Assembly (NCBI GenBank): GCA_945891505.1
Contig: CAMDDL010000004.1
Location: 62,001-126,000 of the forward strand
From: Maricaulis salignorans
GTDB lineage: Bacteria > Pseudomonadota > Alphaproteobacteria > Caulobacterales > Aquidulcibacteraceae
DNA length: 64,000 nt
Direction: 5' to 3'
Both the position numbers and the translations under genes were made by a program. The stretch's first letter is position 1; every line of letters begins with the position of its first letter. Below, one piece after another: positions 16,388-37,391 of the stretch. A model generated the notes under the pieces. That model ran no database searches. It worked only from the letters and a program-made list of their open reading frames with translations, and had not been told where the DNA came from.

Positions 16388-17668
16388 CTACTTCTGACCG
16401 GACATATCCTTGCGCAATTGCCGCAAGATGAACCACACGCCCAAGACAACGAAGGGGGCAGAGATCCCCGTGGCCGCCTTGGCATTGAAGTGGAAGATGG
16501 TTTCAGAAAGGCCTTCCATCATGAAAAGGATCAGTCCCAAGGAATAGTAAGAGATGGCAGCAACCGACAGGCCTTCAACGGTTTGTTGCAACCGCAATTG
16601 CTCTTGGCTACGTCGATCCATGGAGGCCAACAGGCCGACATTGATCGCCTCAGAGGCCACTTCGACCCGCGTGTTGAGCATCTGGGTGGTGCGGGCGATG
16701 CGTTCGATCACGTCGCGTTGGCGGTCGCCGACGGCGACACAGGTTCGCATGGCAGGGGCTAACCGACGTTCCATAAAGTCAGAAATCGTCGGGCGACCCT
16801 CAATCGCCAGTTCACGCAATTGCCCGATGCGCTCTTGCACCAGCCCTTCATAGGCACGCGCAGCGGCAAAGCGATAGGTCGTGGCCCCAACCATGGCTTC
16901 GGCCTCCCCCGCCAAGGCTGCCAAGCGCGACAAAAGATTGCGGTCTGCCTCGACGCCGCCTTCATCAGCAACTTGAATGGCCGAAGCCGCTGCCTCGGCT
17001 TCAAAGCGCGCCAAGGTTACAGAGGTGGAGTTTGCAAGCGGGAAAGCCAATAATGCCAGTAAACGATAGGTCTCAATCTCAAACAATTGCTGCAGCACCC
17101 GCCCGGCGGTTACAGGATTTGGGTCTGACTGCACCATGACGAAGCGTGTGAAGGAATCAGGACCCGGGCGAAAATCACTGAAAACATCAATCGAGCCATT
17201 TGCGACCCGTGCTGCAATAATGTCGCTATCGGCAAAGGGCAAATGGTCGGGTGCCAGTGTTGACAGCACGACATGGGCCGCGCCCAGAACCTCCCCGGGC
17301 AGGTCGGCCAGCCAGTCTTGTGGCAGAAGGTCTAAAGCTGTCACCTCAAACATAAAGTCAGGCGTCGTGGGGCTGTCGCGGAATACGGTCCAAGTTGAGA
17401 TTTCGGTATGTCGTTCCCACCGGAGCCGCCAAGTTCCTCCGTCCACCACGCACCAGCGTGCATCGGGCCCCGGTTCAGAAGTCCCAATTTTCCGACAAAG
17501 GGCCGCCATATGGGCGCGGTCGGCACCCACACCGCCTTCACCCGACATGGTGGCAATCCGGGAAGCCAAATGAGGGGCTTGCACAGGGGTCGAGGGCCGG
17601 GCATGCGCTTCGGCGAGAAGAAGGTCCCGCTGCGGGTGAAACTTCAATTGTAAACCTTGCCGTCTCAT
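16388..17668 (-). CDS. DUF3422 family membrane protein
   Basis: 426 aa from ATG 17668, which has GGGAG ten bases upstream; the frame extends to 17773 without homology. The N-terminus has the family hallmark HPQRDLLLAEAHARP, followed by a soluble domain, a helical segment (about 260-370) and two C-terminal membrane helices (about 370-392 and 398-417: GLLASM...ISYYSLGLILFMMEG and ISAPFVVLGVWFILRQL). DUF3422 proteins are common in alphaproteobacteria and of unknown function. Divergent from bchO. Confidence 0.8.
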   Translation of the reverse strand: MRRQGLQLKFHPQRDLLLAEAHARPSTPVQAPHLASRIATMSGEGGVGADRAHMAALCRKIGTSEPGPDARWCVVDGGTWRLRWERHTEISTWTVFRDSPTTPDFMFEVTALDLLPQDWLADLPGEVLGAAHVVLSTLAPDHLPFADSDIIAARVANGSIDVFSDFRPGPDSFTRFVMVQSDPNPVTAGRVLQQLFEIETYRLLALLAFPLANSTSVTLARFEAEAAASAIQVADEGGVEADRNLLSRLAALAGEAEAMVGATTYRFAAARAYEGLVQERIGQLRELAIEGRPTISDFMERRLAPAMRTCVAVGDRQRDVIERIARTTQMLNTRVEVASEAINVGLLASMDRRSQEQLRLQQTVEGLSVAAISYYSLGLILFMMEGLSETIFHFNAKAATGISAPFVVLGVWFILRQLRKDMSGQK

Positions 17669-17934
17669 GCTGTTCTTTCTCCCAGGACCCGCCTGAACGG
17701 TCATGCCTGCGTCCAGTAACAGGCTTGTCATGTCGTAGCTCTGGCGTGCTTGTCTCTGGCAGTATAGCGACAAGCCGGTGTTTTAGGTGGTCACGGGATG
17801 ATAGTAGTGGAACAATCGAGAATCGCGGTGGTGCGAATTGAACGTGACCACACTGTGGACATGGTCGAAACACTTACCAAGCATGCCCCTGAGGGCTGCT
17901 TTGATTTTGCCTTGAGCCATACGGATCTGACCTG

Positions 17935-18969: not shown

Positions 18970-20520
18970 ATGAACTTTACAACAAAACCTTCCGATTTCG
19001 CCTCAGCCCGCGCTGACACCCGCCCACATGCTATCGTTATTGGCGCAGGCTTCGGAGGGCTGGCTGCCGCCATCCGCTTAGGGGCAAAAGGCTATCGCGT
19101 CAGCCTTTACGAAAAGCTCGATGGTCCGGGTGGGCGCGGTTATGTCTATCGCCAAGACGGCTTCACCTTTGATGCTGGCCCGACCATCATCACGGCCCCC
19201 TTCATCTTTGAAGAATTGTGGAACCTCTGCGGCAAGACCCTCTCTGACCACGTGCAACTGCGCAGCATCGACCCGTTTTACAAGATCCGCTTTGATGATG
19301 GGTCTGTCTTTGAGGCCACAGCCGATCTCGATGCGATGCGCAAGCAGATTGCCCGCTTTGAGCCGAACGACCTTGCGGGCTTTGATCGCTATATGGTGGC
19401 GAGTGAAGCGATTTATGATGAAGCCTTCACCAAACTGGTCGACCAGCCGTTTCATGAGCTCTCGACCCTGTTCAAATCCGCGCCCGATTTGATCCGGCTG
19501 GGCGGGTTTAGAACTGTCTATGGCAAGGTCTCGGAATTCTTCAAGAATGAAAAGCTACGGGTGGCGTTCAGTTTCCATCCGCTGCTCATCGGCGGCAATC
19601 CATTTGCCACAACCTCTTATTATTGCCTGATCGCCCACTTAGAGCGCACCTATGGCGTTCATTACGCCTTGGGCGGAACCGGAGCCTTGGTAAAGGGCAT
19701 GGTCGATCTGATTGAAGATCACGGCAATCAGTTGATTTATGATACTGAAATCGACGAAATTCTGACCGACAATGGCCGGGCGGCGGGCGTTCGTTTGGCG
19801 TCGGGGGAGATCGTTCACGCGGATCTTGTGGTTTCCAACGCGGATTTGGGCTGGACCTATTCAAAGCTCCTTCGCAATCAGCCGCGCAAGGTTTGGTCCG
19901 ATGAGAAGATCGCGCGCGCCGATTATTCGATGAGTTTGTTTGTCTGGTATTTCGGGACCAATCGGAAGTTTGACGATTGTTATCAGCACACCATGGTTTT
20001 GGGGCCCCGTTATCAGGAGCTGTTGGCGGATATCTTCACCAAAAAGAAGCTGGCCGAAGATTTCAGCCTCTATCTGCATCGCCCAACGGCAAATGATCCA
20101 AGCCTCGCCCCAGAAGGCTGTGATGCGTTTTATGTCTTGGCCCCGGTTCCTCATTTGGGCAGCGGCGTTGATTGGGCAAGTATGGCAGAGCCTTACCGCA
20201 AAAAGATCGAACAACGTTTGGCAGAAACCGTACTACCGGGCCTGTCTGATGCGATCATCTCGTCGCATATGCTGACGCCACAAGACTTTCAGGATCGCCT
20301 GTTATCGACCAATGGCGCGGCTTTTGGCATGGAACCTAAATTGTTTCAAAGTGCTTGGTTCCGGCCGCATAACATCAGCTCAGACGTGCCGGGGCTCTAT
20401 TTTGTTGGGGCTGGAACACATCCGGGCGCTGGGCTGCCTGGGGTGGTCTCATCGGCCAAGGTGATTGATCGCCTGATCCCGCCAGCAGCTGCTTGGGCTT
20501 CGAAAGTCAAAACGGCTTAA
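18970..20520 (+). CDS. crtI: Phytoene desaturase, CrtI
   Basis: 516 aa FAD-dependent CrtI-type desaturase. Dinucleotide motif IVIGAGFGGLAAAIRLGAKGYRVSLYEKLDGPGGR at residues 22-56 and C-terminal FAD motif GLYFVGAGTHPGAGLPGVVSSAKV. Converts phytoene to neurosporene or lycopene; the number of steps cannot be read from sequence. No ribosome site stands out before ATG 18970. The stop overlaps the convergent crtD stop (shared TTAA, 20517-20520), so there is no room for a terminator between them. Confidence 0.96.
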   Translation: MNFTTKPSDFASARADTRPHAIVIGAGFGGLAAAIRLGAKGYRVSLYEKLDGPGGRGYVYRQDGFTFDAGPTIITAPFIFEELWNLCGKTLSDHVQLRSIDPFYKIRFDDGSVFEATADLDAMRKQIARFEPNDLAGFDRYMVASEAIYDEAFTKLVDQPFHELSTLFKSAPDLIRLGGFRTVYGKVSEFFKNEKLRVAFSFHPLLIGGNPFATTSYYCLIAHLERTYGVHYALGGTGALVKGMVDLIEDHGNQLIYDTEIDEILTDNGRAAGVRLASGEIVHADLVVSNADLGWTYSKLLRNQPRKVWSDEKIARADYSMSLFVWYFGTNRKFDDCYQHTMVLGPRYQELLADIFTKKKLAEDFSLYLHRPTANDPSLAPEGCDAFYVLAPVPHLGSGVDWASMAEPYRKKIEQRLAETVLPGLSDAIISSHMLTPQDFQDRLLSTNGAAFGMEPKLFQSAWFRPHNISSDVPGLYFVGAGTHPGAGLPGVVSSAKVIDRLIPPAAAWASKVKTA

Positions 20521-22004
20521 TCGGTCAGAAAATCCGCTTGGAGGCGGGCAGCGGCAAGCCGCCCGGAAAGAGCTGCCATGGGGATGCCGGGGCCCGGATG
20601 AGCGGAGCCTCCGGCGAGGTAAAGGCCTTTTACGCCGCTGCGGGCACCAGGTCGTTGGAAACTGGCCATCGGTCCATGATTGGCCCGGCCATAAAGCGCA
20701 CCCCCACTTGCTGGGAACAGCGCGTTAAACCCTTGTGGCGTGGTGACTTGTTCGTGGTCGACAGATAGACGCAGGCCACAGCTGGCCATCATGGCCCAAG
20801 CGCTTTGCTTGGCTTTCGCTTCAGCTTCTGGGCCATAAGTTTGGCTGTCGCCATTGGCGGGGGCATTCATTAGGATCAACAGGCGTTCTGGTCGATCGGG
20901 TGGGGTGCAGGCATCGTCACGGTCTTGTGCGCAGATATAGATCGTCGGGGCTTGCGGCGGTCGCTGCCTAGCGAAAACGTCTTGAAACTCCGCCTTGTAA
21001 TCATCGGAAAACAGGACTGTATGGTGCGCTAAATCCAAACCGCTGGTGGTGGCGGTGGCGCACCAGGTGATGGCAGACTGGGATCGTTGGGGCAGGACGA
21101 CGGGCTTCGCTGCTGGCACGGCATCGGGTCCTAAAAGACCTCGGCCAAGGGCAGAGATGTCACCATTGAACACAATGGCATCGGCCTGCATAGCTAGACC
21201 GCTCTTCAGTGCAATTCCGCAAACGCGCCCGTTGCGAGTCTCAATCCGCTCAACATCGGCTTGGAAATGGAACGCGACCCCTTGGCTGATTGCTAAGGAT
21301 TTGAGGGCTTCGGCGACCTTGGCCATGCCGCCATCAACCCGCCACACGCCCTCTTGCTCCACATGGCTGACCAGCATCAAAGTCGCCGGAGCCGCAAAGG
21401 GCGATGAGCCGCAATAGGTGGCATAGCGGCCAAACAATTGCTTGAGGCGGGGATCGCGGAAATAGGCCCCAAGTGCCCCCCAAAGGGTCTGATGTGGCGC
21501 AGTCTGCCACATCGCGCCCAATTTGTTGAAGCCAACGCGGGCAACCAATTCAATGGGGTTCGGACGTTGGCTTGCGATAAAGGGGCCACGCAACGTCTCA
21601 TAGATTGAGGCGCTGCGCTTACAGAAGGCCAGATAGCCTGTCGCATCCTCCGCGCCTGAGAAATCACGAATGGCTTCCGCAGAGGCGTCGCGATCGGCAA
21701 ATAGGTCCAGATTGCCGCCTTGGCACCACGCATGACGGGCCAGAATTGTCGCGGGCAACAAGGTCAGGTGATCGTCGAGGGCGAGGCCCGCATCCTCAAA
21801 CAGGCCATCAAAAACCCACTTCATCGTAAAGACAGTCGGCCCACCATCGATGGCTGTTTCCCCGACCGGCACTTGGCGCATCTTACCACCAATAGTGGCG
21901 GCCCGTTCGACCACGTGAACCTGATGGCCTAGCCGGGCAAGGTCGATCGCGGCGGAAAGGCCGCCCATTCCAGCACCAATGACGACAACCTTCTTGGCCT
22001 TCAC
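20517..22004 (-). CDS. crtD: 1-hydroxycarotenoid 3,4-desaturase (methoxyneurosporene dehydrogenase), CrtD
   Basis: 495 aa from GTG 22004; the GTG overlaps the stop of the upstream gene, which favours it over a further upstream frame extension that would lie inside that gene. FAD motif VVVIGAGMGGLSAAIDLARLGHQV near the N-terminus and the CrtD signature GGPTVFTMKWVFDGLFEDAG (residues about 58-77), plus C-terminal GLYLAGGSAHPGPGIPMAALSG. CrtD introduces the C3,4 double bond in the spheroidene/spirilloxanthin route after CrtC hydration. Convergent with crtI. Confidence 0.93.
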   Translation of the reverse strand: MKAKKVVVIGAGMGGLSAAIDLARLGHQVHVVERAATIGGKMRQVPVGETAIDGGPTVFTMKWVFDGLFEDAGLALDDHLTLLPATILARHAWCQGGNLDLFADRDASAEAIRDFSGAEDATGYLAFCKRSASIYETLRGPFIASQRPNPIELVARVGFNKLGAMWQTAPHQTLWGALGAYFRDPRLKQLFGRYATYCGSSPFAAPATLMLVSHVEQEGVWRVDGGMAKVAEALKSLAISQGVAFHFQADVERIETRNGRVCGIALKSGLAMQADAIVFNGDISALGRGLLGPDAVPAAKPVVLPQRSQSAITWCATATTSGLDLAHHTVLFSDDYKAEFQDVFARQRPPQAPTIYICAQDRDDACTPPDRPERLLILMNAPANGDSQTYGPEAEAKAKQSAWAMMASCGLRLSVDHEQVTTPQGFNALFPASGGALYGRANHGPMASFQRPGARSGVKGLYLAGGSAHPGPGIPMAALSGRLAAARLQADFLTD

Positions 22005-22735
22005 GGAGCCGCGCCTGTGGCCTGTGGCGTGCGGGGGCGCAGGCTCAATCGGATTTGCCGATGGTGGTAGAGGATGATGGCGAGCCCAGTCACCAAAGGA
22101 ATGGCCCATAGGCCTGGGTGCAAAGCGATGGAGGGCATTATCCGAACCGCGCCAAAAGCTGCAAAAGCCGTATAGACCGAAATGCCAGCCCCAACGATGG
22201 CTTTAACATGCTCCATCAAATAGATTTTCGGACCGGGTGAAGGGTTCAGCATAAAGAACAAATTGGTGCCCGCCGTCGCAAAGCCAATGATGGACATGCC
22301 CACCATCAGATATTGGCCAATCAAAACACCCTCAATGGCGCAGGCAAAGGCTGCCACGACCAACATGGGTTGCAGCGCGAGGTTAAGACCACGACGATTG
22401 GCGGCATGATTGGCCTTATTCTTGATCGTCTGAAGACCATACCAAGCGAGATTGATGGTCAAGATCGCCAAATAAAGCATCATCACACCAAAAATTCCCC
22501 GCACAAAAAAGGGGTCCTTCAGGTGTGGGTGGGTCCCCAAGGGGTCAATTAAAGTGCAAATGCTCAATAACAGGGCCACAGAGCCTGCAGCCAAAATCGA
22601 CCATGCAAAAATTTTACCCCACAGCCGGTGATTGCGGTTACCCTTCTTGCCCAGAACCGGGATCCAAAAGCTGACCAGTCCGACCGCTCCAAACACAATG
22701 TGGATGGCAACCAACGTGTGAAACAAGGTAAGCAT
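22001..22735 (-). CDS. DUF2306-like multi-pass membrane protein in an operon with crtD
   Basis: 244 aa, about seven hydrophobic helices. The N-terminus TLFHTLVAIHIVFGAVGLVSFWIPVLGKKGNRNHRLWGKIFAWSI has the conserved histidines, W-x-P and KKG...HR..G pattern of DUF2306-like membrane proteins. The function is unknown; the histidines could bind haem or metal. It starts at ATG 22735 (a GTG precedes) and its stop overlaps the crtD GTG, so crtD translation depends on it. It may act on carotenoid or electron supply to the desaturase or the nearby P450, which is inference from position only. Confidence 0.65.
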   Translation of the reverse strand: MLTLFHTLVAIHIVFGAVGLVSFWIPVLGKKGNRNHRLWGKIFAWSILAAGSVALLLSICTLIDPLGTHPHLKDPFFVRGIFGVMMLYLAILTINLAWYGLQTIKNKANHAANRRGLNLALQPMLVVAAFACAIEGVLIGQYLMVGMSIIGFATAGTNLFFMLNPSPGPKIYLMEHVKAIVGAGISVYTAFAAFGAVRIMPSIALHPGLWAIPLVTGLAIILYHHRQIRLSLRPRTPQATGAAP

Positions 22736-22777
22736 CACTGTCTATCCAGTCGAAAGCGTCTAGTGGGCTGGACATAG

Positions 22778-22787
22778 TGACGCGTCA
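22778..22787. promoter_or_regulatory. Palindrome TGACGCGTCA in a divergent promoter region
   Basis: A perfect 10-bp palindrome lies in the 123-bp gap between the divergent DUF2306-crtD and P450-ATP-grasp units. It is not a PpsR-type site. Ten-base perfect palindromes do occur by chance in 64 kb, so only its position makes it worth listing. Confidence 0.25.
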
Positions 22788-22858
22788 AGCGTTAGGCTTC
22801 AAGGGGTTGAGCGCGGCTTTTTGCGGAGCGATCAAAATGAGTGGGCTGAGGTAGACGG

Positions 22859-24253
22859 GTGTTGGTGGACGAACTTGACGCTCAAGGCGCGGTTTATACC
22901 CCGCCTCGGCCCGCGCCTATGGGGCCATTGGCCAGCTTGATCCGGGTGATCCGACAAGGCGATGGTGATCTGTTGAGCCTGATGCCAGCTGACGCTTACT
23001 TACTGCCGATGGGGCCACTGGGCTATTCGCGTCGCTCCATCCAGATTGTGAATGACCCGGCTTTGACCAAGCCCATTCTGGCCGACGCCGAGGATATCTT
23101 TCCCAAGAATGATTTGATGGTTGGCGCGCTAACGCCCTTGGTGGGCGACAGCATGTTTGTGTCCAGCGGGTCGCTATGGCGTCAACAAAGGCGGATGATT
23201 GATCCGGCCTTCTCCCATATCCGACTGGCGAAAGCCTTTCCGTCTATGGTCGGCGCTTTGGATGATTTTGAGGCGCGTCTGCAGGCCGCCGCTACATCGG
23301 GGCAGGAGATGTCACTCGACCTCGCCATGGGCCAACTGACTGCTGATATCATTTGCCGCACCGTTTTTTCGGCTTCCCTTGCCAATGATACAGCGCGAGA
23401 CGTGTTTGAGTCTTTTGCCTTCTTCGAGCGCAGTGTCGCCCATGTTGAGTTGGTGCGCCTCATCTTTGGTAAGCCCTTTGATGACATACCCCAGCGGGCC
23501 GATGTGTTGGAAGCTTGCGCCCGGATTCGGGGGCATATCGGTCGCCTACTCGACACCCATTTAGAGGCGGGGGCGACATTTGATGATATCGCCGCAGCCG
23601 TGATTGCCGCGCGCGATCTGGAGACCGATACCCGCTTCACCCGCGAAGAATTAATCGACCAATTGGGCGTGTTCTTCCTAGCGGGGCATGAAACAACGGC
23701 CAGCGCTTTGACTTGGGCTTTCTTCATTGCCGCAATGCAGCCCACTGTCGCCGATAAGGTTCAAGCTGAAGCCATGGCAGTTGCCGGTTCTGGCCCGATT
23801 GAGTTCGATCATGTGAAGCGGCTGACCTATGCCCGCAACGTGTTCAAAGAGGCGTTGCGGCTTTATCCACCCATCACTTTCATTCCCCGCGTGGCAGCCC
23901 GCGCAACCACGATCGGAACAAAACACATCAAGCGCGGGACCATGGTGATGATTGCGCCGTGGGCGGTGCATCGTCATCAGGCATTATGGCCAAATCCTGA
24001 TGTGTTCGATCCAGACCGCTTTTTACCAGAGCGAGAGCACGAAATTGTTGCGGGCTCTTACATCCCATTTGGAGCGGGCCCGCGTGTTTGTGTGGGCGCG
24101 GCCTTTGCCACCACGGAGGCAACGCTCATCCTCGCGCGCATTTTGCGGACCTATCGCATTGACGTGCAACAGCCAGAACTTGTGCGCCCTGTTGCCCGGC
24201 TAACAACACGTCCGGCCCAAGAAGTCATGATTAAAGTCTCGGTGCGGGCATGA
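22859..24253 (+). CDS. Cytochrome P450 in the carotenoid cluster
   Basis: 464 aa, complete P450: C-helix WRQQRR (107-112), I-helix oxygen-binding AGHETT (275-280), K-helix EALR (331-334), DPDRF (384-388) and haem loop FGAGPRVCVG with Cys411. The FGAGPRxC loop and length fit the CYP4/CYP102-like group that hydroxylates long hydrocarbon chains. No signal peptide or membrane anchor is evident. Start GTG 22859 follows GAGG; an ATG just upstream is closed by a stop. It overlaps the following ATP-grasp gene (ATGA). A redox partner is not encoded nearby. Substrate unknown; position among crt genes suggests a carotenoid or other isoprenoid/lipid, which is inference. Confidence 0.93.
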   Translation: MLVDELDAQGAVYTPPRPAPMGPLASLIRVIRQGDGDLLSLMPADAYLLPMGPLGYSRRSIQIVNDPALTKPILADAEDIFPKNDLMVGALTPLVGDSMFVSSGSLWRQQRRMIDPAFSHIRLAKAFPSMVGALDDFEARLQAAATSGQEMSLDLAMGQLTADIICRTVFSASLANDTARDVFESFAFFERSVAHVELVRLIFGKPFDDIPQRADVLEACARIRGHIGRLLDTHLEAGATFDDIAAAVIAARDLETDTRFTREELIDQLGVFFLAGHETTASALTWAFFIAAMQPTVADKVQAEAMAVAGSGPIEFDHVKRLTYARNVFKEALRLYPPITFIPRVAARATTIGTKHIKRGTMVMIAPWAVHRHQALWPNPDVFDPDRFLPEREHEIVAGSYIPFGAGPRVCVGAAFATTEATLILARILRTYRIDVQQPELVRPVARLTTRPAQEVMIKVSVRA

Positions 24254-25404
24254 GTAAAACCGTCTTGCTCACCATTGGCCGCTTGCCCAAAGCCTTGGAC
24301 TTTGCGCGATCCTTTAAGGCCGCCGGCTGGCGCGTTTTGGTGGCAGAGCCCTTCAAGTCGCACCTAACCGGGGCGTCGAATTGCGTCGATCAGTGCTTTC
24401 AGGTGCCGCCGCCATCGAAGGGTAAAGAAGCCTATCTGACGGCACTTCTGCGCGTAATCGAGGAGGAAGCGGTTGATCTGGTTTTGCCCTTGTCTGAGGA
24501 GACCATGCATGTGGCCCATTTAGCGGGGCGACTACCCGCGCAAACCCGCCTCTATGCCCCGCCGGTCGACCGCCTTTTGGCGCTTCACGATAAGGCGCGC
24601 TTTCCCGCGCGTGCGCGAGATTTTGGCTTAGATGTCCCGGAAACAGCCTTGATCGAAAGCCCTGAAGCACAGGGGATCGCCGACGGCCATGATTTTGTCG
24701 TCAAGCCGATCTTCTCCTGCTCTGGCCGAGCGGTCAGCTTGCACGCGGCGCGCACTTCCTTGATCAGCATTGCTGCTACCCTGTCCGAGCCTGCGGTCGC
24801 GCAAGTCCAGCTCAAGGGCAAGCAATATAGCACTTTTGCCATTGCTCAGGCTGGTGAGGTCTTGATCAATGTCATCTATCAAGGGGCGGTTATGACCGGC
24901 AGCGTGGCTGTTGCTTTTGAGCGTGTCGAACTTCCCGCGATCCAAGAATGGGTCGCAACCTTTGTGCAATTTGAACATCATACGGGCTTTATTTCGTTCG
25001 ACTTCTTCGTTGATGAGGAGGGTAAAGCTTGGGCCATTGAGTGTAATCCCCGTGTGACCAGCGGGGTCCATTTCATTGAGACCGAAGATTTGGCCCCAGC
25101 CATCTTAGATCCGGGCTCCAAGCCGATCCGGTACAAGAAGACTAGATTGATGCAGCAATTCTACCCGACACTAACAGAAGTGCAGGCTGCGATGTTTAAA
25201 GGCCCGCACTTTTGGGAGCGCTTAAAAGTGCTGCGCACGGCCCAAGATGTGACGTGGGGTGCAGGTGACCCCATGCCCTTTATCACCATGCCGATCACGG
25301 CTTTCTCGATCATCGCCATGTCGATCCGGCAACAACAAACGTTCGGCCAAGTCTCCACCCAGGACATTTCGTGGTTCGACGGCGCATATTTGAAGGCGGG
25401 CTGA
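24250..25404 (+). CDS. ATP-grasp ligase of unknown substrate, coupled to the P450
   Basis: 384 aa. The N-terminal pre-ATP-grasp Rossmann-like domain (VLLTIGRLPKALDFARSFKAAGWRVLVAEP) and central ATP-grasp fold with DFVVKPIFSCSGRAV (148-162) and the Mg/ATP carboxylate motif ECNPRVTSGVHF (264-275) resemble carbamoyl-phosphate-synthase-like carboxylate-amine ligases. Such enzymes activate a carboxylate with ATP and join it to an amine or other nucleophile. The C-terminal 110 residues, beyond the ATP-grasp core, are unique to its subgroup and contain GPHFWERLKVL. Start ATG overlaps the P450 stop by 4 bp, so the two form one translational unit. Confidence 0.85.
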   Translation: MSKTVLLTIGRLPKALDFARSFKAAGWRVLVAEPFKSHLTGASNCVDQCFQVPPPSKGKEAYLTALLRVIEEEAVDLVLPLSEETMHVAHLAGRLPAQTRLYAPPVDRLLALHDKARFPARARDFGLDVPETALIESPEAQGIADGHDFVVKPIFSCSGRAVSLHAARTSLISIAATLSEPAVAQVQLKGKQYSTFAIAQAGEVLINVIYQGAVMTGSVAVAFERVELPAIQEWVATFVQFEHHTGFISFDFFVDEEGKAWAIECNPRVTSGVHFIETEDLAPAILDPGSKPIRYKKTRLMQQFYPTLTEVQAAMFKGPHFWERLKVLRTAQDVTWGAGDPMPFITMPITAFSIIAMSIRQQQTFGQVSTQDISWFDGAYLKAG

Positions 25405-25478: not shown

Positions 25479-26579
25479 ATGGGCATGCTGAGTTTCGCAG
25501 CCGAAAGTCTAGATAGGACCGAGCCCATGGCTGGGGCCCCTACCTATGCCACCCCGTCAGATCGCGCGGCGTGCCGGGACCTGATTAAAACAGGGTCACA
25601 CTCCTTTTATTCCGCATCCTTGCTGCTGCCCGAGGCGCTGCGTGAAGCAGCCTATGCGCTTTATGGCTTCTGTCGTTTGTCTGATGATGCTGTTGATGTG
25701 GAGAATGGCCAAGGTGACGCGATTGCGCGCCTGCGCGAGCGCCTCGATGGCGTTTATTCGGGCCGCCCCCAGACCGAAGCCGCCGACCGCTGCCTTGCCG
25801 ATGTCGTGCGTGCCTATGGTATTCCTCGCGCAGTGTTTGATGCGTTGTTGGAGGGCTTTGAATGGGATGTCGCAGAGCGCACCTATGAAACCTTAGCTGA
25901 TGTCGAAGACTATGGAGAGCGGGTGGCAGGATCGGTCGGTGCCATGATGGCTGCCTTAATGGACGTGCGTAGTGCTGCCATGGTTGAGCGCGCCTGTGAT
26001 CTCGGCGTCGCCATGCAATTGACCAATATTGCGCGCGACATCGGTGAAGATGCCCGGCAAGGCAGGCTCTATATCCCGCGTGCTTGGTTGCGAGAAGCGG
26101 GAATTGATCCTGAAACCTGGCTCGCCCAGCCTGATTTTTCGCCAGCGATTGCTGTTTTAACGGAGCGCTTGTTGGCGCGCGCAGAAGTACTCTACCGCCG
26201 CGCGGACCAAGCCATCGCGCGCCTGCCTGCAACCGTTCGCCCTGCTATTTATGCTGCCCGCTTGCTATATGCTGAAATCGGCAAAGTCATTCGCGCACAG
26301 GGCTATGATTCAGTCTCCAAGCGCGCCAGTACCACGGCCGCCCGCAAGGCGTGGCTGGTTGGTGCATCGATGCAGCGGGCGGTACGTCCGGCACCTAAGG
26401 GAGAGTTGTCGATTGCCCGTGGCGTCGGCAGGCCTTTGGTGGCGGCGATTGTTCAGTCTCCACCGGGCTTTGGGCCTGCCAACAAGCGCAAGCAAAGTGT
26501 TAAAGACGACCTCAATTGGGTTATTGATCTTTTCTCGGACCTCGAAGTGCGCGATCGCACAGGGAGCCGAAGCCGATGA
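25479..26579 (+). CDS. crtB: Phytoene synthase, CrtB
   Basis: 366 aa prenyl synthase joining two geranylgeranyl diphosphates into phytoene. Aspartate-rich motifs DDAVD (69-73) and RDIGED (186-191) with the NIARDIGEDARQGRLYIP signature. The ATG at 25479 has no obvious ribosome site; an in-frame ATG at 25527 preceded by AGGA would give 350 aa and starts nearer the conserved region, so either is possible. The stop overlaps the ATG of a small membrane protein gene. The C-terminal 80 residues are basic, as in other proteobacterial CrtB. Confidence 0.95.
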   Translation: MGMLSFAAESLDRTEPMAGAPTYATPSDRAACRDLIKTGSHSFYSASLLLPEALREAAYALYGFCRLSDDAVDVENGQGDAIARLRERLDGVYSGRPQTEAADRCLADVVRAYGIPRAVFDALLEGFEWDVAERTYETLADVEDYGERVAGSVGAMMAALMDVRSAAMVERACDLGVAMQLTNIARDIGEDARQGRLYIPRAWLREAGIDPETWLAQPDFSPAIAVLTERLLARAEVLYRRADQAIARLPATVRPAIYAARLLYAEIGKVIRAQGYDSVSKRASTTAARKAWLVGASMQRAVRPAPKGELSIARGVGRPLVAAIVQSPPGFGPANKRKQSVKDDLNWVIDLFSDLEVRDRTGSRSR

Positions 26580-26755
26580 GCCCCAATCTTATGTTCTTCC
26601 TTGAGTTTCTGTTGTTCAGCGGCGTGTTTCTCGTCTTTGCGATTTGGCAGGTGATTTCGCTATCGCCAAAAAGGATCGCAGCTGAGGAGGCAAAAAAGCA
26701 GGCTGAACGAGAAAAAGCCGCTTTAGAAGAATCTTCTGGGCATCCGGAAGGGTAG
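26576..26755 (+). CDS. 59-aa single-span membrane protein downstream of crtB
   Basis: ATG overlaps the crtB stop (ATGA). The product has one hydrophobic helix (about residues 6-29, FFLEFLLFSGVFLVFAIWQV) followed by a charged, heptad-like Ala/Glu/Lys tail (AAEEAKKQAEREKAALEE) that should form a helix on the cytoplasmic side. No family recognised. Its last 33 bases overlap the end of crtC on the other strand. Coupling to crtB suggests it could tether CrtB or partner enzymes to the membrane, where phytoene is made; this is inference. Confidence 0.6.
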   Translation: MSPNLMFFLEFLLFSGVFLVFAIWQVISLSPKRIAAEEAKKQAEREKAALEESSGHPEG

Positions 26756-27742
26756 CATGGCCCGGACGAGTGGCATTTTAAGCCGATCAAGGTTCAAGGT
26801 CTCATGCATCATCAGCACGCTTTCGCCCTCAAGGCGGCTTTCTAAGGCAGAGCGGGCATAAAATGGCGTATCCTCCAGCGTCTTAATTACGCGAGCGGGC
26901 GCTGGCCCATCAGACCAAGCTTCGCGATCAATGCCCCAGAAAGTTCTGGCCAATCCTTGCTGCTTGGTTGGTGCCGATTCCGAAACCTTCCCGTCGTGGC
27001 TTATGTTGAGGAATGTTGCGCGCCGTGGCCCAGATCGATTGGTGACGTCATAGAACAGCCGCAAGTCGTCCGCCCGGTGGGCTCGCCCCCAGTGCCAATG
27101 CGCAAAGGCCCGCTCCAGCGGTTCTTGCCCAGCATTAGTGTCAAAATAGCCGTCGCCCGACCAAGACAGGTTTGGGCTGTCAAAGCTGAGTTCGACGCGG
27201 GCTTTGGGGGCGAGGGGGCGCCACGAATGCCGACCGTTAAGGTCCAGATCAAAACTGGCTTGCGTTTCTACTTCAGGAATCAGCCGTATACGACCCTTGA
27301 GGCGCGACGGAATAGGCACGCAAACTTCAAAGATATCCACCACCAATTCGCTTCCTGTATACTGAAGAGAACTTGGGCCAACGGCAAAATGGTGCGCGCT
27401 GCGATCTAATTGATTTGCCCGCCTTTCGGTCATGGCCCAACGGCCTCCTGCTCCGTCCAATCGGTAGAGGGCCACATTGATCGCACAATGGTCGAACGGA
27501 TTTTTCCAGCCAGACCAAGCATAATAAGGGGAAAACACACTGCCGATGAAGGCAATCAAAGTTACGCCATACTTGCCATCGTCGCTTACTGCATCCAGAT
27601 ACCACCAAATATAACCACCATCGCCGCCCACGGGGGCAGTGAAATTAGGGCCTCTTAGGCTTTGATCAGGAGAGAGCTGCACCATTGAGACGTTAGTTCC
27701 ATGCAAAACCGGTAAAAAGTCAATTGACCTAGACGCTAACAT
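26723..27742 (-). CDS. crtC: Carotenoid 1,2-hydratase (hydroxyneurosporene synthase), CrtC
   Basis: 339 aa. Adds water across the C1,2 double bond of neurosporene/lycopene ends. Family segments: GGYIWWYLDAVSDDGKYGVTLIAFIGSVFSPYYAW near the N-terminus and GDGYFDTNAGQEPLERAFAHWHWGRAHRADDLRLFYDV in the centre. The ATG at 27742 gives a slightly long N-terminus; a later start at VSMVQL (about residue 18) is possible. Divergent from crtE across 41 bp, and convergent with the crtB operon, overlapping the small downstream gene. Confidence 0.95.
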   Translation of the reverse strand: MLASRSIDFLPVLHGTNVSMVQLSPDQSLRGPNFTAPVGGDGGYIWWYLDAVSDDGKYGVTLIAFIGSVFSPYYAWSGWKNPFDHCAINVALYRLDGAGGRWAMTERRANQLDRSAHHFAVGPSSLQYTGSELVVDIFEVCVPIPSRLKGRIRLIPEVETQASFDLDLNGRHSWRPLAPKARVELSFDSPNLSWSGDGYFDTNAGQEPLERAFAHWHWGRAHRADDLRLFYDVTNRSGPRRATFLNISHDGKVSESAPTKQQGLARTFWGIDREAWSDGPAPARVIKTLEDTPFYARSALESRLEGESVLMMHETLNLDRLKMPLVRAMLPFRMPRRFF

Positions 27743-27783: not shown

Positions 27784-28653
27784 ATGTCGCATACAGCACG
27801 GATTGAGCGGGCTTTGGAAGCCGCTGTGGCCATGGGTCAGGCGGATGATGCAGCGCCTGGATTGGCAGCTGCCCTGCGTTATGCCGTTTTCCCGGGTGGC
27901 GCACGGGTGCGCCCGCAGCTTAGCTTAGCTGTCTCTGCAGCTTGTGGCGGCTCAAATCCTGATCTGGCCGATGCCGCTGCTGCCTCGATTGAGCTTCTCC
28001 ATTGTGCGTCTTTAGTCCACGACGATTTACCCTGCTTTGATGATGCTGACCTTCGGCGCGGCAAACCAACGGTGCATGCGAAGTTTGGTGTGCCCTTGGC
28101 GCTTCTGACTGGTGACGCCTTGATCGTGATGGCCTTTGAGGTGCTGGCGCGCGCTGGCGCGCAAGACCCAGCAAGACTGCCGGGCTTGATTTCCTGCATC
28201 GCACGCGGTGTTGGCGCGCCTTATGGGATTGTAGCAGGCCAAGCTTGGGAGTGTGAGACTTCTGCTCCCGTTGATGCTTATCATCAGGCCAAGACCGGTG
28301 CTTTGTTTGTCGCGGCAACCACTGCCGGCGCTTTGGCTGCCGGTGCTGACCCCACGCCTTGGCGGGCCTTGGGTGAAGGCTTAGGGGCCGCGTATCAGGT
28401 CGCCGATGATCTGCTGGACGCGCTGGGCGACTGCGAAGAATCTGGCAAGACAAGTGGCCGCGATCATGCGCTGCAACGGCCAAGTGCTGTGACCTCGCTC
28501 GGTGTACATGGCGCCGTGGCCTTGTTGGAATCGCATTTGGACCGTGCGGCGCAGTCCATTCCAGATTGTGCCGGGGCCAAAGCTCTGCGCGAGACGGTTC
28601 GGGTTCAGGCCACACGCCTTGTGCCAAAGCAACTTGCCCGCAGCGCTGCCTAG
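27784..28653 (+). CDS. crtE: Geranylgeranyl diphosphate synthase, CrtE
   Basis: 289 aa trans-prenyltransferase that makes C20 diphosphate for carotenoids and for the bacteriochlorophyll tail. First aspartate-rich motif DDLPCFDD at residues 80-87, second DDLLD in AYQVADDLLDALGDCEESGK. Ribosome site GGAG 8 bp before ATG 27784. crtF follows 6 bp downstream in the same operon. Confidence 0.95.
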   Translation: MSHTARIERALEAAVAMGQADDAAPGLAAALRYAVFPGGARVRPQLSLAVSAACGGSNPDLADAAAASIELLHCASLVHDDLPCFDDADLRRGKPTVHAKFGVPLALLTGDALIVMAFEVLARAGAQDPARLPGLISCIARGVGAPYGIVAGQAWECETSAPVDAYHQAKTGALFVAATTAGALAAGADPTPWRALGEGLGAAYQVADDLLDALGDCEESGKTSGRDHALQRPSAVTSLGVHGAVALLESHLDRAAQSIPDCAGAKALRETVRVQATRLVPKQLARSAA

Positions 28654-28659
28654 ACACCC

Positions 28660-29778
28660 ATGATACCGCGCTCCTGGCTTGATGCTTGGACAGCATGGCG
28701 CAATCGCTTGGTCTCTAGTCCAAGCTTTCAGCGCTGGGCTGCTGGCTTTTTCCTGACCCGTCCTATCGCGCACCAAAGCGCGGATCGCCTGTTTGGACTG
28801 GTCGCAGGCTTTGTTTATTCCCAAGTTCTGCTTGCCTGCGTGCAATTGCACTTACCTGAAACGCTCGCCGAAGGCCCAAAGACGACCCAAGCTTTGGCAG
28901 ACGCGATGGATCTGCCTCTCGACTCTGCTGCGCGGCTTTTGTCGGCTGCTCAATCCCTTGATTTGGTGGAATTGGCGGGCCCAGATCGTTACGCGCTTGG
29001 CATGCAGGGGGCAGCACTTCTTGGCAATGCCGGTCTCGGCGATATGATCCGCCATCATGCGCTGTTCTATGCTGACCTTGCCGACCCCGTTGCCCTGTTA
29101 AAGCACGGCGGCGGGCAGGGGCAATTGGCCTCCTTCTGGCCGTATGCCGCTTATGATCGACCTGACCAGACGAAAGCGGATGCGATCTCGCCCTATTCGG
29201 CCTTGATGGGCGCGACCCAGCCCATGATCGCGAGCGACATTTTGGCTGCCTATCCATTGAGCCAACATCAGGTCCTTATGGATGTCGGTGGGGGTGAAGG
29301 GGCTTTTGCATTGGCGGCCGCGCATCACGCGCCGCATATGCAGGTGCGTGTCTTCGACTTGCCTGCTGTGGCGGACCGGGCACACGCGGCATTTGGGGCA
29401 CGCCAATTGGGGGACCGGGCGCAGGCGATTGGCGGTAACTTTCTCGATGGCGTTCTGCCAAAGGGCGCTGACATTATCTCCCTTGTCCGCATTCTGCACG
29501 ACCACGATGATGCGACGGTGATGAAGCTCCTGCGCGCTGCCCATGCCGCCCTGCCGCCAAAAGGTGTCTTGATGATTGCGGAGCCGATGTCCGCTTTTCC
29601 AACGCGGGACCCCATGGCTGAGGCCTATTTTGGCTTCTATTTGATGGCAATGGGTCGGGGTCGTGCCCGCACGCCAGTCGAAATCAGTGCCATGGCACGC
29701 GCAGCCGGCTTTAGCCGCATCGTGAACAAACCGACAAGAACCCCAATGCTGGTCCGCGTCTTAATCGCCTATCCCTGA
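28660..29778 (+). CDS. crtF: Hydroxyneurosporene/demethylspheroidene O-methyltransferase, CrtF
   Basis: 372 aa class I methyltransferase with an N-terminal winged-helix dimerisation domain and SAM motif DVGGGEGAF at 208-216. Methylates the 1-hydroxyl made by CrtC to give methoxy carotenoids. Position right behind crtE is the standard purple-bacterial arrangement. The N-terminal 35 residues are basic and aromatic. After the stop there is a short A/T-rich stem and T-run near 29790-29830 that could weakly terminate before the bchC promoter. Confidence 0.95.
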   Translation: MIPRSWLDAWTAWRNRLVSSPSFQRWAAGFFLTRPIAHQSADRLFGLVAGFVYSQVLLACVQLHLPETLAEGPKTTQALADAMDLPLDSAARLLSAAQSLDLVELAGPDRYALGMQGAALLGNAGLGDMIRHHALFYADLADPVALLKHGGGQGQLASFWPYAAYDRPDQTKADAISPYSALMGATQPMIASDILAAYPLSQHQVLMDVGGGEGAFALAAAHHAPHMQVRVFDLPAVADRAHAAFGARQLGDRAQAIGGNFLDGVLPKGADIISLVRILHDHDDATVMKLLRAAHAALPPKGVLMIAEPMSAFPTRDPMAEAYFGFYLMAMGRGRARTPVEISAMARAAGFSRIVNKPTRTPMLVRVLIAYP

Positions 29779-35615: not shown

Positions 35616-36440
35616 ATGGCCTTGCTGAGTTTTGAACGCAAATACCGTGTTCGGGGTGGGACGCTGATTGGCGGCGACCTCTTCGACTTTTGGGTGGGGC
35701 CCTTTTACGTGGGCTTCTTTGGAGTAACTGCAATCTTTTTCGCTGTGCTTGGCACGGCACTGATTGCTTATGGCGCGTCTTTGGGCCCGACATGGAACCC
35801 GTGGCTGATTGATATTCAGCCGCCTGCAGAATCGTATGGCCTTAGTTTGGCACCCTTGAAAGAGGGTGGCATCTGGCAAGTGGTCACCATGTGCGCCATC
35901 GGCGCTTTCTCATCTTGGGCCCTGCGCGAAGTGGAGATTTCCCGCAAGCTGGGTATGGGTCTACATGTGCCGTTTGCCTTTAGTGTCGCTATCTTTGCCT
36001 ATGTGACTTTGGTCGTCATTCGCCCCGTTCTGATGGGCGCATGGCATCACGGCTTCCCCTATGGGATTTTCACGCATTTGGACTGGGTTTCCAACACCGG
36101 CTACAAATACATCAACTTCCATTACAATCCGGCGCATATGGTGGCGGTCACCTTCTTCTTTGTGAACACGTTCGCATTGGCGTTGCATGGCTCTCTCATT
36201 CTGTCCGCGACCAACCCCGGCAGGGGCGAGGTGGTTAAAACCCCGGAACATGAAGACACATTCTTCCGCGATATTCTTGGCTACTCCATTGGTACTCTTG
36301 GGATCCACCGTCTAGGCCTATTCTTGGCACTTTCGGCTGGCTTCTGGAGTGCAGTGTGTATCGTCATCAGCGGCCCAATCTGGTCACTTGGTTGGCCCGA
36401 GTGGTGGGATATGTGGCTTAAACTCCCAATTTGGGGCTAA
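35616..36440 (+). CDS. pufL: Photosynthetic reaction centre L subunit, PufL
   Basis: 274 aa, five membrane helices. Conserved [17 protein letters not shown] (BChl-ligand region), [30 protein letters not shown] (special-pair and iron ligands) and [23 protein letters not shown] near the quinone site. Ribosome site AAGGAGGACGC before ATG 35616. Holds the active-branch pigments of the type II reaction centre. Confidence 0.98.
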
Positions 36441-36458
36441 TAGGCAGGAGCACGCAAA

Positions 36459-37391
36459 ATGGCTGGCTATCAAAATATCTTTACTCAAGTCCAAGTTCGC
36501 GGCCCCGTTGAATTAGGGGTGCCGCTCCCGAAAGGCAGCTTGGAACGAGATGGGGAAGGCTTTATTGGCATCTCCCGTCTGTTGGGAAAAATCGGTAATG
36601 CTCAAATTGGCCCAATCTATTTGGGCTGGACCGGCATCGCCTCCCTCTTCTTCGGCTTACTCGCCTTTGAAATCATTGGGCTCAATATGGCAGCCTCGGT
36701 GAACTGGGACCCGATTGAATTCATCCGGCGTCTGCCTTGGTTGACGTTGGATCCCCCGCCACCCGAACAGGGCTTCAACCTTTTCCCCCCACTAGACCAA
36801 GGCGGTTGGTGGGTCATGGCCGGGTTCTTTCTGACCACGTCCTTAATCCTTTGGTGGGTCCGCACTTATAACCGGGCCAAGGCTTTGGGTTTGGGTACGC
36901 ATGTTGCCTGGGCTTTTGCTTCTGCGATTTGGTTGTTCCTCGTGCTTGGCTTTATTCGTCCTGCTTTGATGGGCAGCTGGAGTGAAGCAGTTCCATATGG
37001 GATTTTCTCCCACTTGGATTGGACCGGGGCTTTTTCCATCACCTATGGCAATCTGTTCTATAATCCGTTCCACTGCCTCTCGATCGTCTTCCTCTATGGG
37101 TCGGCTCTTTTGTTCGCGATGCATGGTGCGACCATTCTTGCAGTTAGCCGCTATGGCGGTGAGCGTGAAATTGAGCAGATTACCGATCGCGGTACGGCTT
37201 CTGAACGGGCTGCATTGTTCTGGCGCTGGACCATGGGCTTCAATGCCTCAATGGAATCCATCCATCGCTGGGCTTGGTGGTTCGCCGTTCTGACCACTCT
37301 TACCGGCGGCATTGGCATCTTGTTGACCGGGACCGTTGTCACCGACTGGTATGGCTGGGCTGAAGTCCACAATTACGCCCCACCTCGCTAA
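36459..37391 (+). CDS. pufM: Photosynthetic reaction centre M subunit, PufM
   Basis: 310 aa. Conserved [64 protein letters not shown] and [21 protein letters not shown] contain the special-pair, iron and quinone-site residues. Follows pufL by 18 bp. No pufC (tetrahaem cytochrome) or pufX follows; a soluble cytochrome c or HiPIP presumably reduces the reaction centre directly. Confidence 0.98.

Follow-up and report, generated by a model that had tools for sequence, protein, structure and literature searches.

Genes at the locus

The DNA analysed here, referred to as the window, is a stretch of 64,000 nucleotides assigned to Maricaulis salignorans (assembly GCA_945891505.1, contig CAMDDL010000004.1, positions 62,001 to 126,000). 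It contains a cytochrome P450 gene and a gene for an ATP-grasp ligase-like protein, which lie side by side among carotenoid (crt) genes and form part of a larger conserved set with a DUF2306-like membrane protein gene and crtD. The source genome comprises 3.07 Mb in 88 contigs, and among named organisms the contig scan described below placed Aquidulcibacter, a Hyphomonadaceae bacterium and Candidatus Phycosocius nearest to it. The features of the set in the window are as follows.

20517-22004, minus strand: crtD of the lineage defined below (1-hydroxycarotenoid 3,4-desaturase family), with 679.3 bits above the curated NF045637 cut-off of 580; desaturase activity is predicted
22001-22738, minus strand: DUF2306-like membrane protein, 245 amino acids (aa); PF10067, 25.3 bits, E = 1.8e-5, below the cut-off of 31.6
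22739-22858, no strand: divergent promoter region, 120 bp, between the DUF2306-like gene and the P450 gene
22859-24253, plus strand: cytochrome P450, 464 aa; PF00067, E = 1.3e-73; haem-ligand Cys411 encoded by codon 24089-24091
24250-25404, plus strand: ATP-grasp ligase-like protein; PF02655, 27.1 bits, cut-off 23.2; AlphaFold2 model with the ATP-grasp fold and a predicted local distance difference test score (pLDDT) of 91

A first-pass annotation had described the P450 and ATP-grasp open reading frames (ORFs) as fused into one translational unit between crtD and crtB. Both ORFs are present at 22859-24253 and 24250-25404, and the reported 4-bp overlap of the P450 stop with the ATP-grasp ATG (ATGA) is there; these are two overlapping genes, with no fusion. 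The placement was half right: crtB lies downstream of the pair, while crtD does not directly flank the P450 gene, the DUF2306-like gene intervening. The annotation had omitted that gene, as well as the separate lineage of the linked crtD.

All features expected of the P450 superfamily were found: the haem-loop cysteine, AGxxT (AGHET at residue 275) and ExxR (EALR at residue 331). The haem loop FGAGPRVCVG begins at residue 404, and Cys411, named earlier as the haem ligand, is therefore correct. Among 50 P450 sequences compared, the loop reads GPHTCVG, with the cysteine retained, in four (loci L010, L011, L012 and L072), and L042 has ESMR in place of ExLR. The ligase-like protein likewise has what marks the ATP-grasp superfamily, namely a score above the Pfam cut-off, the motif and the fold. 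Residues E264, N266, P267 and R268 were invariant among 30 aligned sequences, and the ECNPR motif occurred in 49 of 52, the remaining three being truncated. Full-length relatives of both proteins thus retain their family motifs.

The protein encoded between crtD and the promoter is named DUF2306-like only, because it misses the PF10067 cut-off. Its model (AlphaFold2 pLDDT 88.3) is mostly helical, with about seven long helices. The mechanical ORF of crtD extends to 22109, and conservation sets in only near residue 41 of this longer frame; the start is likely the GTG ending at 22004, which overlaps the stop of the DUF2306-like gene by 4 bp.

Conservation of the gene set

A contig scan with the ATP-grasp protein yielded 39 loci, to which three from genomes of the same order were added, giving 42. 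Both the P450 and the ATP-grasp genes were present in 40 of these, several of which are near-identical relatives; in the other two (L060, L064) the contig sequence starts with the ATP-grasp gene or close to it. A DUF2306 gene adjoined the pair in 39 of the 40 loci, the last (L059) being cut by the contig end and starting at the P450 gene. In turn, crtD adjoined DUF2306 in 35 loci; the exceptions were L042 (Bosea), L072 (Halieaceae), L143, L144 and the cut locus L059. The core of the set is therefore the trio DUF2306-P450-ATP-grasp, with crtD in most carriers. Chance neighbourhood of a P450 and a ligase was ruled out by the 40 loci.

In the usual arrangement, crtD-DUF2306 and P450-ATP-grasp occupy opposite strands. 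The P450 and ATP-grasp genes converge in L072 and in L010-L012. With script-assigned start codons, 22 of the 35 co-directional loci show the 4-bp overlap, twelve a spacing of -1 to 10 bp and one a spacing of 65 bp. A crt gene was found within the flank read in 36 of the 40 loci, the nearest 17-1019 bp away as measured between alignment ends. Beyond the trio and crtD, neighbour clustering revealed no constant neighbour across all lineages (shadow ORFs aside; most neighbours were unannotated).

The trio genes are under purifying selection. Compared with L035, the ratio of non-synonymous to synonymous substitution rates (dN/dS) was 0.04-0.06 for the P450, ATP-grasp and DUF2306 genes, which speaks against decay; dS was saturated at 1.2-1.5, making these values rough. 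No dN/dS value was obtained for the ATP-grasp gene relative to L038.

Distribution with phototrophy

Genomes behind 34 of the 39 scan loci were searched for pufLM, crtD and crtF, with L034, L036, L039, L045 and L060 omitted as near-copies or pieces. The first-pass annotation had proposed measuring how often the pair occurs together with photosynthesis and carotenoid genes, and the outcome is favourable. Carriers had pufLM in 30 of 34 cases (against 26 in a sample of 385 genomes from the class), a crtD-like gene in all 34 (E ≤ 1e-40) and a crtF-like methyltransferase gene in 28 (E ≤ 1e-30), the six without it being titled metagenome-assembled genomes (MAGs). Because of these counts, and of the crt gene beside 36 of 40 loci, a carotenoid-related role of the pair is well supported.

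A closer sample comprised 81 genomes of the same order, drawn around that of the window. The P450 was found at 56% identity or above in 12 of them, the best other sequence among the matches listed being 34% identical, and the ATP-grasp protein was found at 40% identity or above in the same 12. All 12 fell within the 26 pufLM-positive genomes (Fisher's test, 1.4e-7). In one genus (g15), the sole pufLM-positive genome of five was also the sole carrier. The set is thus present almost only in phototrophs, and a pair residing mostly in non-phototrophs was ruled out by the 30 of 34 carriers with pufLM and the 12 pufLM-positive carriers of the order.

The DUF2306 gene was found alone (47-53% identity) in four further pufLM-positive genomes of the order (G010, G011, G013 and G021), three of them fragmented assemblies. 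It may therefore predate the pair, and could have a separate role in photosynthesis clusters. In G021 it lies between bchO and crtI (L141:1608-2273), where neither P450 nor ATP-grasp genes were found.

Phylogeny of the linked genes

Trees were built by a quick method. In a tree of 61 CrtD sequences, the 32 trio-linked sequences, from Caulobacterales, Sphingomonadales and Acetobacteraceae, formed one clade with a Shimodaira-Hasegawa-like approximate likelihood ratio (SH-aLRT) support of 99. This clade was separate from the second crtD of the same Acetobacteraceae genomes and from the crtD of trio-less relatives of the window. On the evidence of the tree, the linked crtD genes share a common ancestor, and horizontal transfer of the cassette would be the simplest reading. 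Identities of 54-57% to some trio-less relatives had suggested that the linked crtD might be the ordinary crtD of the cluster; the tree ruled this out. Duplicates (L102, L106, L110, L113, L164, L166), near-copies (L039, L045), a half-length sequence (L043), two L168 pieces and L041 (crtD piece too short) were left out of this tree, as was L064 from the enlarged one.

When 25 more crtD sequences from across the class were added, the clade gained one unlinked sequence, L172. This gene (G325; L197:3187-4674) belongs to a phototroph, and neither the trio nor other crt genes of the window type were found in the 20 kb read.

In the crtI tree, in which one locus is present twice (L120, L145), the 17 rows adjoining the trio grouped with one other (L170) at a support of 97. 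In the P450 tree, from which L001-L009, L039 and L045 were omitted, Bosea grouped with Caulobacterales (98), and Halieaceae fell outside the main groups.

Genomic position and neighbouring genes

In trio-less genomes of the same order (L146, L147, L151) the genes run bchO-crtI-crtB-crtC-crtD-crtE-crtF-bchC-bchX-bchY-bchZ, in this order or its reverse. The position of the trio varies: L142 has it between crtB and crtD, L143 has it on the far side of crtI, and in L144 (G075) some 27 kb separate it from bchO.

In sphingomonads, both crtI and crtB were found in the flank of eight of 14 loci, a lycopene cyclase gene was identified in L044 and L055, and in 13 of the 14 genomes the single crtD match was the linked one. 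In all 11 pufLM-bearing sphingomonad genomes the linked crtD and pufLM lay on different contigs, which in draft assemblies is no proof of distance, and in eight of the 11 a crtF-like gene lay on the pufLM contig. In this group, then, the set goes with carotenoid rather than bch or puf genes, away from the photosynthesis cluster.

Sphingomonas sp. 37zxx (G479, L168) carries a further crtD (C103:143421-144617) beside a crtF-like gene, in a frame of 433 aa. This copy covers only query residues 33-243 and 342-527, with about 100 residues missing, and the linked crtD is full length; the cassette crtD has apparently replaced the cluster crtD in this strain. Each of the Acetobacteraceae genomes G470, G474, G481 and G487-G492 gave between four and six matches to the CrtD/CrtI family, with neighbouring pairs (for example G470 C19:156122-159442) that may be a C30 carotenoid set.

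In the window itself, the gene set is surrounded by the following genes.

18970-20520, plus strand: crtI; TIGR02734, 605.5 bits; of the lineage that groups with crtI adjoining the trio elsewhere
25479-26579, plus strand: crtB, phytoene synthase-like; PF00494; best NCBIfam match NF045921, 372.8 bits, below the cut-off of 500
26723-27742, minus strand: crtC-like carotenoid 1,2-hydratase, not adjoining crtD; NF045922, 279.9 bits, below the cut-off of 400
27784-28653, plus strand: crtE-like polyprenyl synthase; PF00348, E = 1.2e-44; named from family and position
28660-29778, plus strand: crtF-like O-methyltransferase; PF00891, E = 1.4e-39; named from family and position, with no NCBIfam crtF match at E ≤ 1e-40
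35703-37370, plus strand: pufL and pufM, two PF00124 reaction-centre genes (G000:C4:97703-99370) of the same photosynthesis cluster

Also around the pair are bchO, identified by family, and bchC, bchX, bchY and bchZ, all above their cut-offs. A DUF3422 protein (PF11902, E = 7.8e-138) is encoded beside bchO at 16388-17773 on the minus strand, and relatives of it lie near photosynthesis or DUF2306 genes in L143, L146, L148 and L171.

A candidate palindrome in the divergent promoter

The palindrome bound by CrtJ is given as TGTN12ACA in the available text of PMC5362033. Exact copies were found in 16 of 34 gaps between DUF2306 and P450 genes, compared with 0.62 expected by base shuffling and a background of 0.88 per same length over 39 whole loci. 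By group, the exact form was present in 13 of 13 sphingomonads, Bosea, two of ten Acetobacteraceae, none of three Brevundimonas and none of seven Aquidulcibacter/Phycosocius loci. In several lineages the divergent promoter holds a CrtJ/PpsR-type palindrome, a candidate regulatory site. In the window, CGTCTAGTGGGCTGGACA at 22757-22774 is one mismatch away from TGTN12ACA, a form that is common by chance; a one-mismatch site occurs at the corresponding place in all seven Aquidulcibacter/Phycosocius loci. Over the whole window the palindrome was not enriched (11 versus 8.9).

Relatives by sequence and fold

Among solved structures the best match to the P450 was LUT5, a plant carotenoid hydroxylase (159 bits, E = 1.6e-45, residues 54-437), followed by another molecule at 135 bits. 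The relationship is distant; about 40% identity is customary for P450s of one family. That LUT5 is the nearest solved relative gives no more than a hint of a carotenoid substrate. The CYP97 enzymes (LUT5) and bacterial CYP175A1 are the closest known systems on the P450 side; the latter was not among the 26 distinct sequences listed for the P450 at E ≤ 1e-30. CYP97 enzymes hydroxylate ring carotenoids, whereas the crt genes of the window belong to an acyclic pathway.

The ATP-grasp model resembled 2pn1 (Z = 24.2) and 3vot (Z = 22.5), and scored much the same against L-amino acid ligase, PylC, PurK, biotin carboxylase and GAR synthetase, all of one superfamily; the fold therefore does not reveal its substrates. 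It shares the fold and the E-N motif with ligases such as BL00235 (3VOT), PylC, PurK and GAR synthetase, but is at most 20% identical to any of the 50 matches listed. The nearest named family, NF005315 (PRK06849), is uncharacterised, and its cut-off of 406 was not reached (273.5 bits). A profile search of solved structures returned two weak matches for the ATP-grasp alignment and none for the DUF2306 alignment. The DUF2306-like model had no Foldseek match at E ≤ 0.001; its best second-look Z was 8.6 over 118 residues, in the range usual for helical models.

Distant relatives of the ATP-grasp protein (30-36% identity; L153:4661-12238 and L152:2024-6209) lie near epimerase/3beta-HSD-family proteins. 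In L153 the neighbours also include a metallo-beta-lactamase-fold protein and one whose C-terminal part is of FabH type, a lipid-like setting that is no more than suggestive.

Known carotenoid pathways

The closest known system is the spirilloxanthin pathway of purple bacteria (CrtI, CrtC, CrtD, CrtF). The window shares with it crtB, crtI, crtC, crtD and crtE-like and crtF-like genes, and most carriers have the linked CrtD. To our knowledge, none of the steps in that pathway involves a P450, an ATP-grasp enzyme or DUF2306. In the available portion of PMC10604819, P450s appear only in general terms and in the statement that CrtA is not one. The CaP clade cluster is given as a complete spirilloxanthin set lacking crtA, and P450 goes unmentioned in the text at hand of PMC10008586. 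Likewise, the available sections of a survey of phototrophy in Caulobacterales (PMC12700997) do not mention P450. A cytochrome P450 is named in a figure legend on loss of phototrophy genes in Citromicrobium (PMC3338782, available in part), and it could be relevant. A carboxylated carotenoid, a carotenedioate, is described from an aerobic anoxygenic phototroph, Roseococcus thiosulfatophilus; it is a C30 compound with no gene assignment in the excerpt of PMC12654162, whereas the window has a phytoene synthase-like crtB and CrtD. In the literature covered, which was partial and mostly outside subscription journals and preprints, no description was found of a P450 gene paired with an ATP-grasp gene within a cluster of crt or photosynthesis genes.

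Interpretation

Taken together, these data suggest that the genes probably constitute a cassette for carotenoid tailoring that moves horizontally among aerobic anoxygenic phototrophs. The set is more general than the first-pass annotation had noted, and would be a group of carotenoid genes whose tailoring steps have not been described before. Oxygenation is known P450 chemistry and ATP-dependent ligation is known ATP-grasp chemistry, and from the protein families we infer that ligation would follow oxygenation; the gene linkage points to a carotenoid as substrate.

In such a scheme, CrtD would make a 3,4-desaturated acyclic carotenoid, and the P450 would use O2 to oxygenate that compound or one closely related to it. 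The ATP-grasp enzyme would then activate a carboxylate as an acyl phosphate and join it to an amine or hydroxyl, giving a more polar, conjugated carotenoid. DUF2306 would be a membrane partner, serving in redox, substrate presentation or a further step, and both DUF2306-crtD and P450-ATP-grasp would be driven from the divergent promoter. Conversion of a terminal methyl to a carboxylate, followed by amide or ester formation, is a guess; the joining of some other carboxylate to a hydroxyl made by the P450 is equally open. We put forward only tentatively, as a proposal that could well be wrong, that the carotenoid is joined after P450 oxidation to an amino acid or small polar molecule, as an amide or ester, and that this modification has spread by transfer and serves light harvesting or photoprotection under oxygen. 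We know of no described enzymes for nitrogen- or acyl-conjugated photosynthetic carotenoids.

Several observations weigh against a mobile carotenoid cassette. No crt gene lies within the flank in four of 40 loci (L042 from Bosea, L059 on a short contig, L072 from Halieaceae, and L144). Four carriers (L042/G466, L072/G494, G017 and G075) have an unlinked crtD that falls outside the cassette lineage, so that crtD is not indispensable; conversely, L172 is a crtD of that lineage with no trio alongside. The pufLM genes were not seen in four of 34 carriers (L059, L061, L062, L070), all titled MAG. Nine of the 12 same-order carriers belong to one genus, and counted by genus the association is four of 13 versus none of 14 (p = 0.04). 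Among the 26 pufLM-positive genomes of the class sample only that of the window carries the set (identity of at least 40%), and phototrophy therefore does not need it. The exact palindrome is absent from the promoter of the window, from three of three Brevundimonas and eight of ten Acetobacteraceae, and from the four loci of other arrangement that were examined (L072, L142, L143, L144), and many of the 16 promoters bearing it are related sequences. The similarity of the P450 to LUT5 is distant. Finally, the absorption peaks of a carrier, Ca. P. spiralis, were taken as spirilloxanthin, according to the available text of PMC10008586; any product would therefore be minor or spectrally similar.

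Some of these points would also fit a trio whose substrate is a lipid of the photosynthetic membrane other than a carotenoid (a quinone, a hopanoid, a fatty acid or the bacteriochlorophyll tail) and which lies near crt genes by way of photosynthesis clusters. Trio loci that have no crt neighbours in phototrophs (L042, L072, L144) and the lipid-like setting of the distant ATP-grasp relatives in L152 and L153 are in line with this. We nevertheless regard it as unlikely, given that sphingomonads have the set apart from pufLM, at eight loci with crtI and crtB, and that the linked crtD is of one lineage. Still harder to sustain is a P450 that forms an apocarotenoid acid from a carotenoid, by cleavage or oxidation, for conjugation by the ATP-grasp enzyme, yielding a signal or defence molecule rather than bulk pigment. 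A P450 and a carboxylate ligase do make a plausible acid-then-conjugate pair, and bulk pigment may be unchanged in the carrier with spirilloxanthin-like peaks (PMC10008586, in the part available); such a route would have no need of a desaturase like CrtD, however, and no further constant neighbour gene was seen across all lineages. That these are standing photosynthesis-cluster genes of unrelated function, held together by co-transfer, is very improbable: such clusters do move as blocks, and DUF2306 does occur alone in four phototrophs of the order, but the trio is found together within the cluster or at its border (window, L142, L143), about 27 kb away (L144) and elsewhere in sphingomonads, and the 12 of 81 genomes with the P450 gene are also those with the ATP-grasp gene.

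A carotenoid-tailoring cassette would represent carotenoid modification outside the standard models of the purple-bacterial pathway. Aerobic anoxygenic phototrophs are described, in the excerpt of PMC12654162, as making carotenoids in excess and in great variety. The set is compact and present in strain-named carriers, namely Novosphingobium fuchskuhlense FNE08-7, Falsiroseomonas stagni DSM 19981, Ca. Phycosocius BOTRYCO-1 and BOTRYCO-2, and Aquidulcibacter paucihalophilus TH1-2, leaving its product open to identification. If the proposal is true, it could give a function to the DUF2306-like membrane protein, and carotenoid tailoring can move as a cassette independent of the photosynthesis gene cluster.

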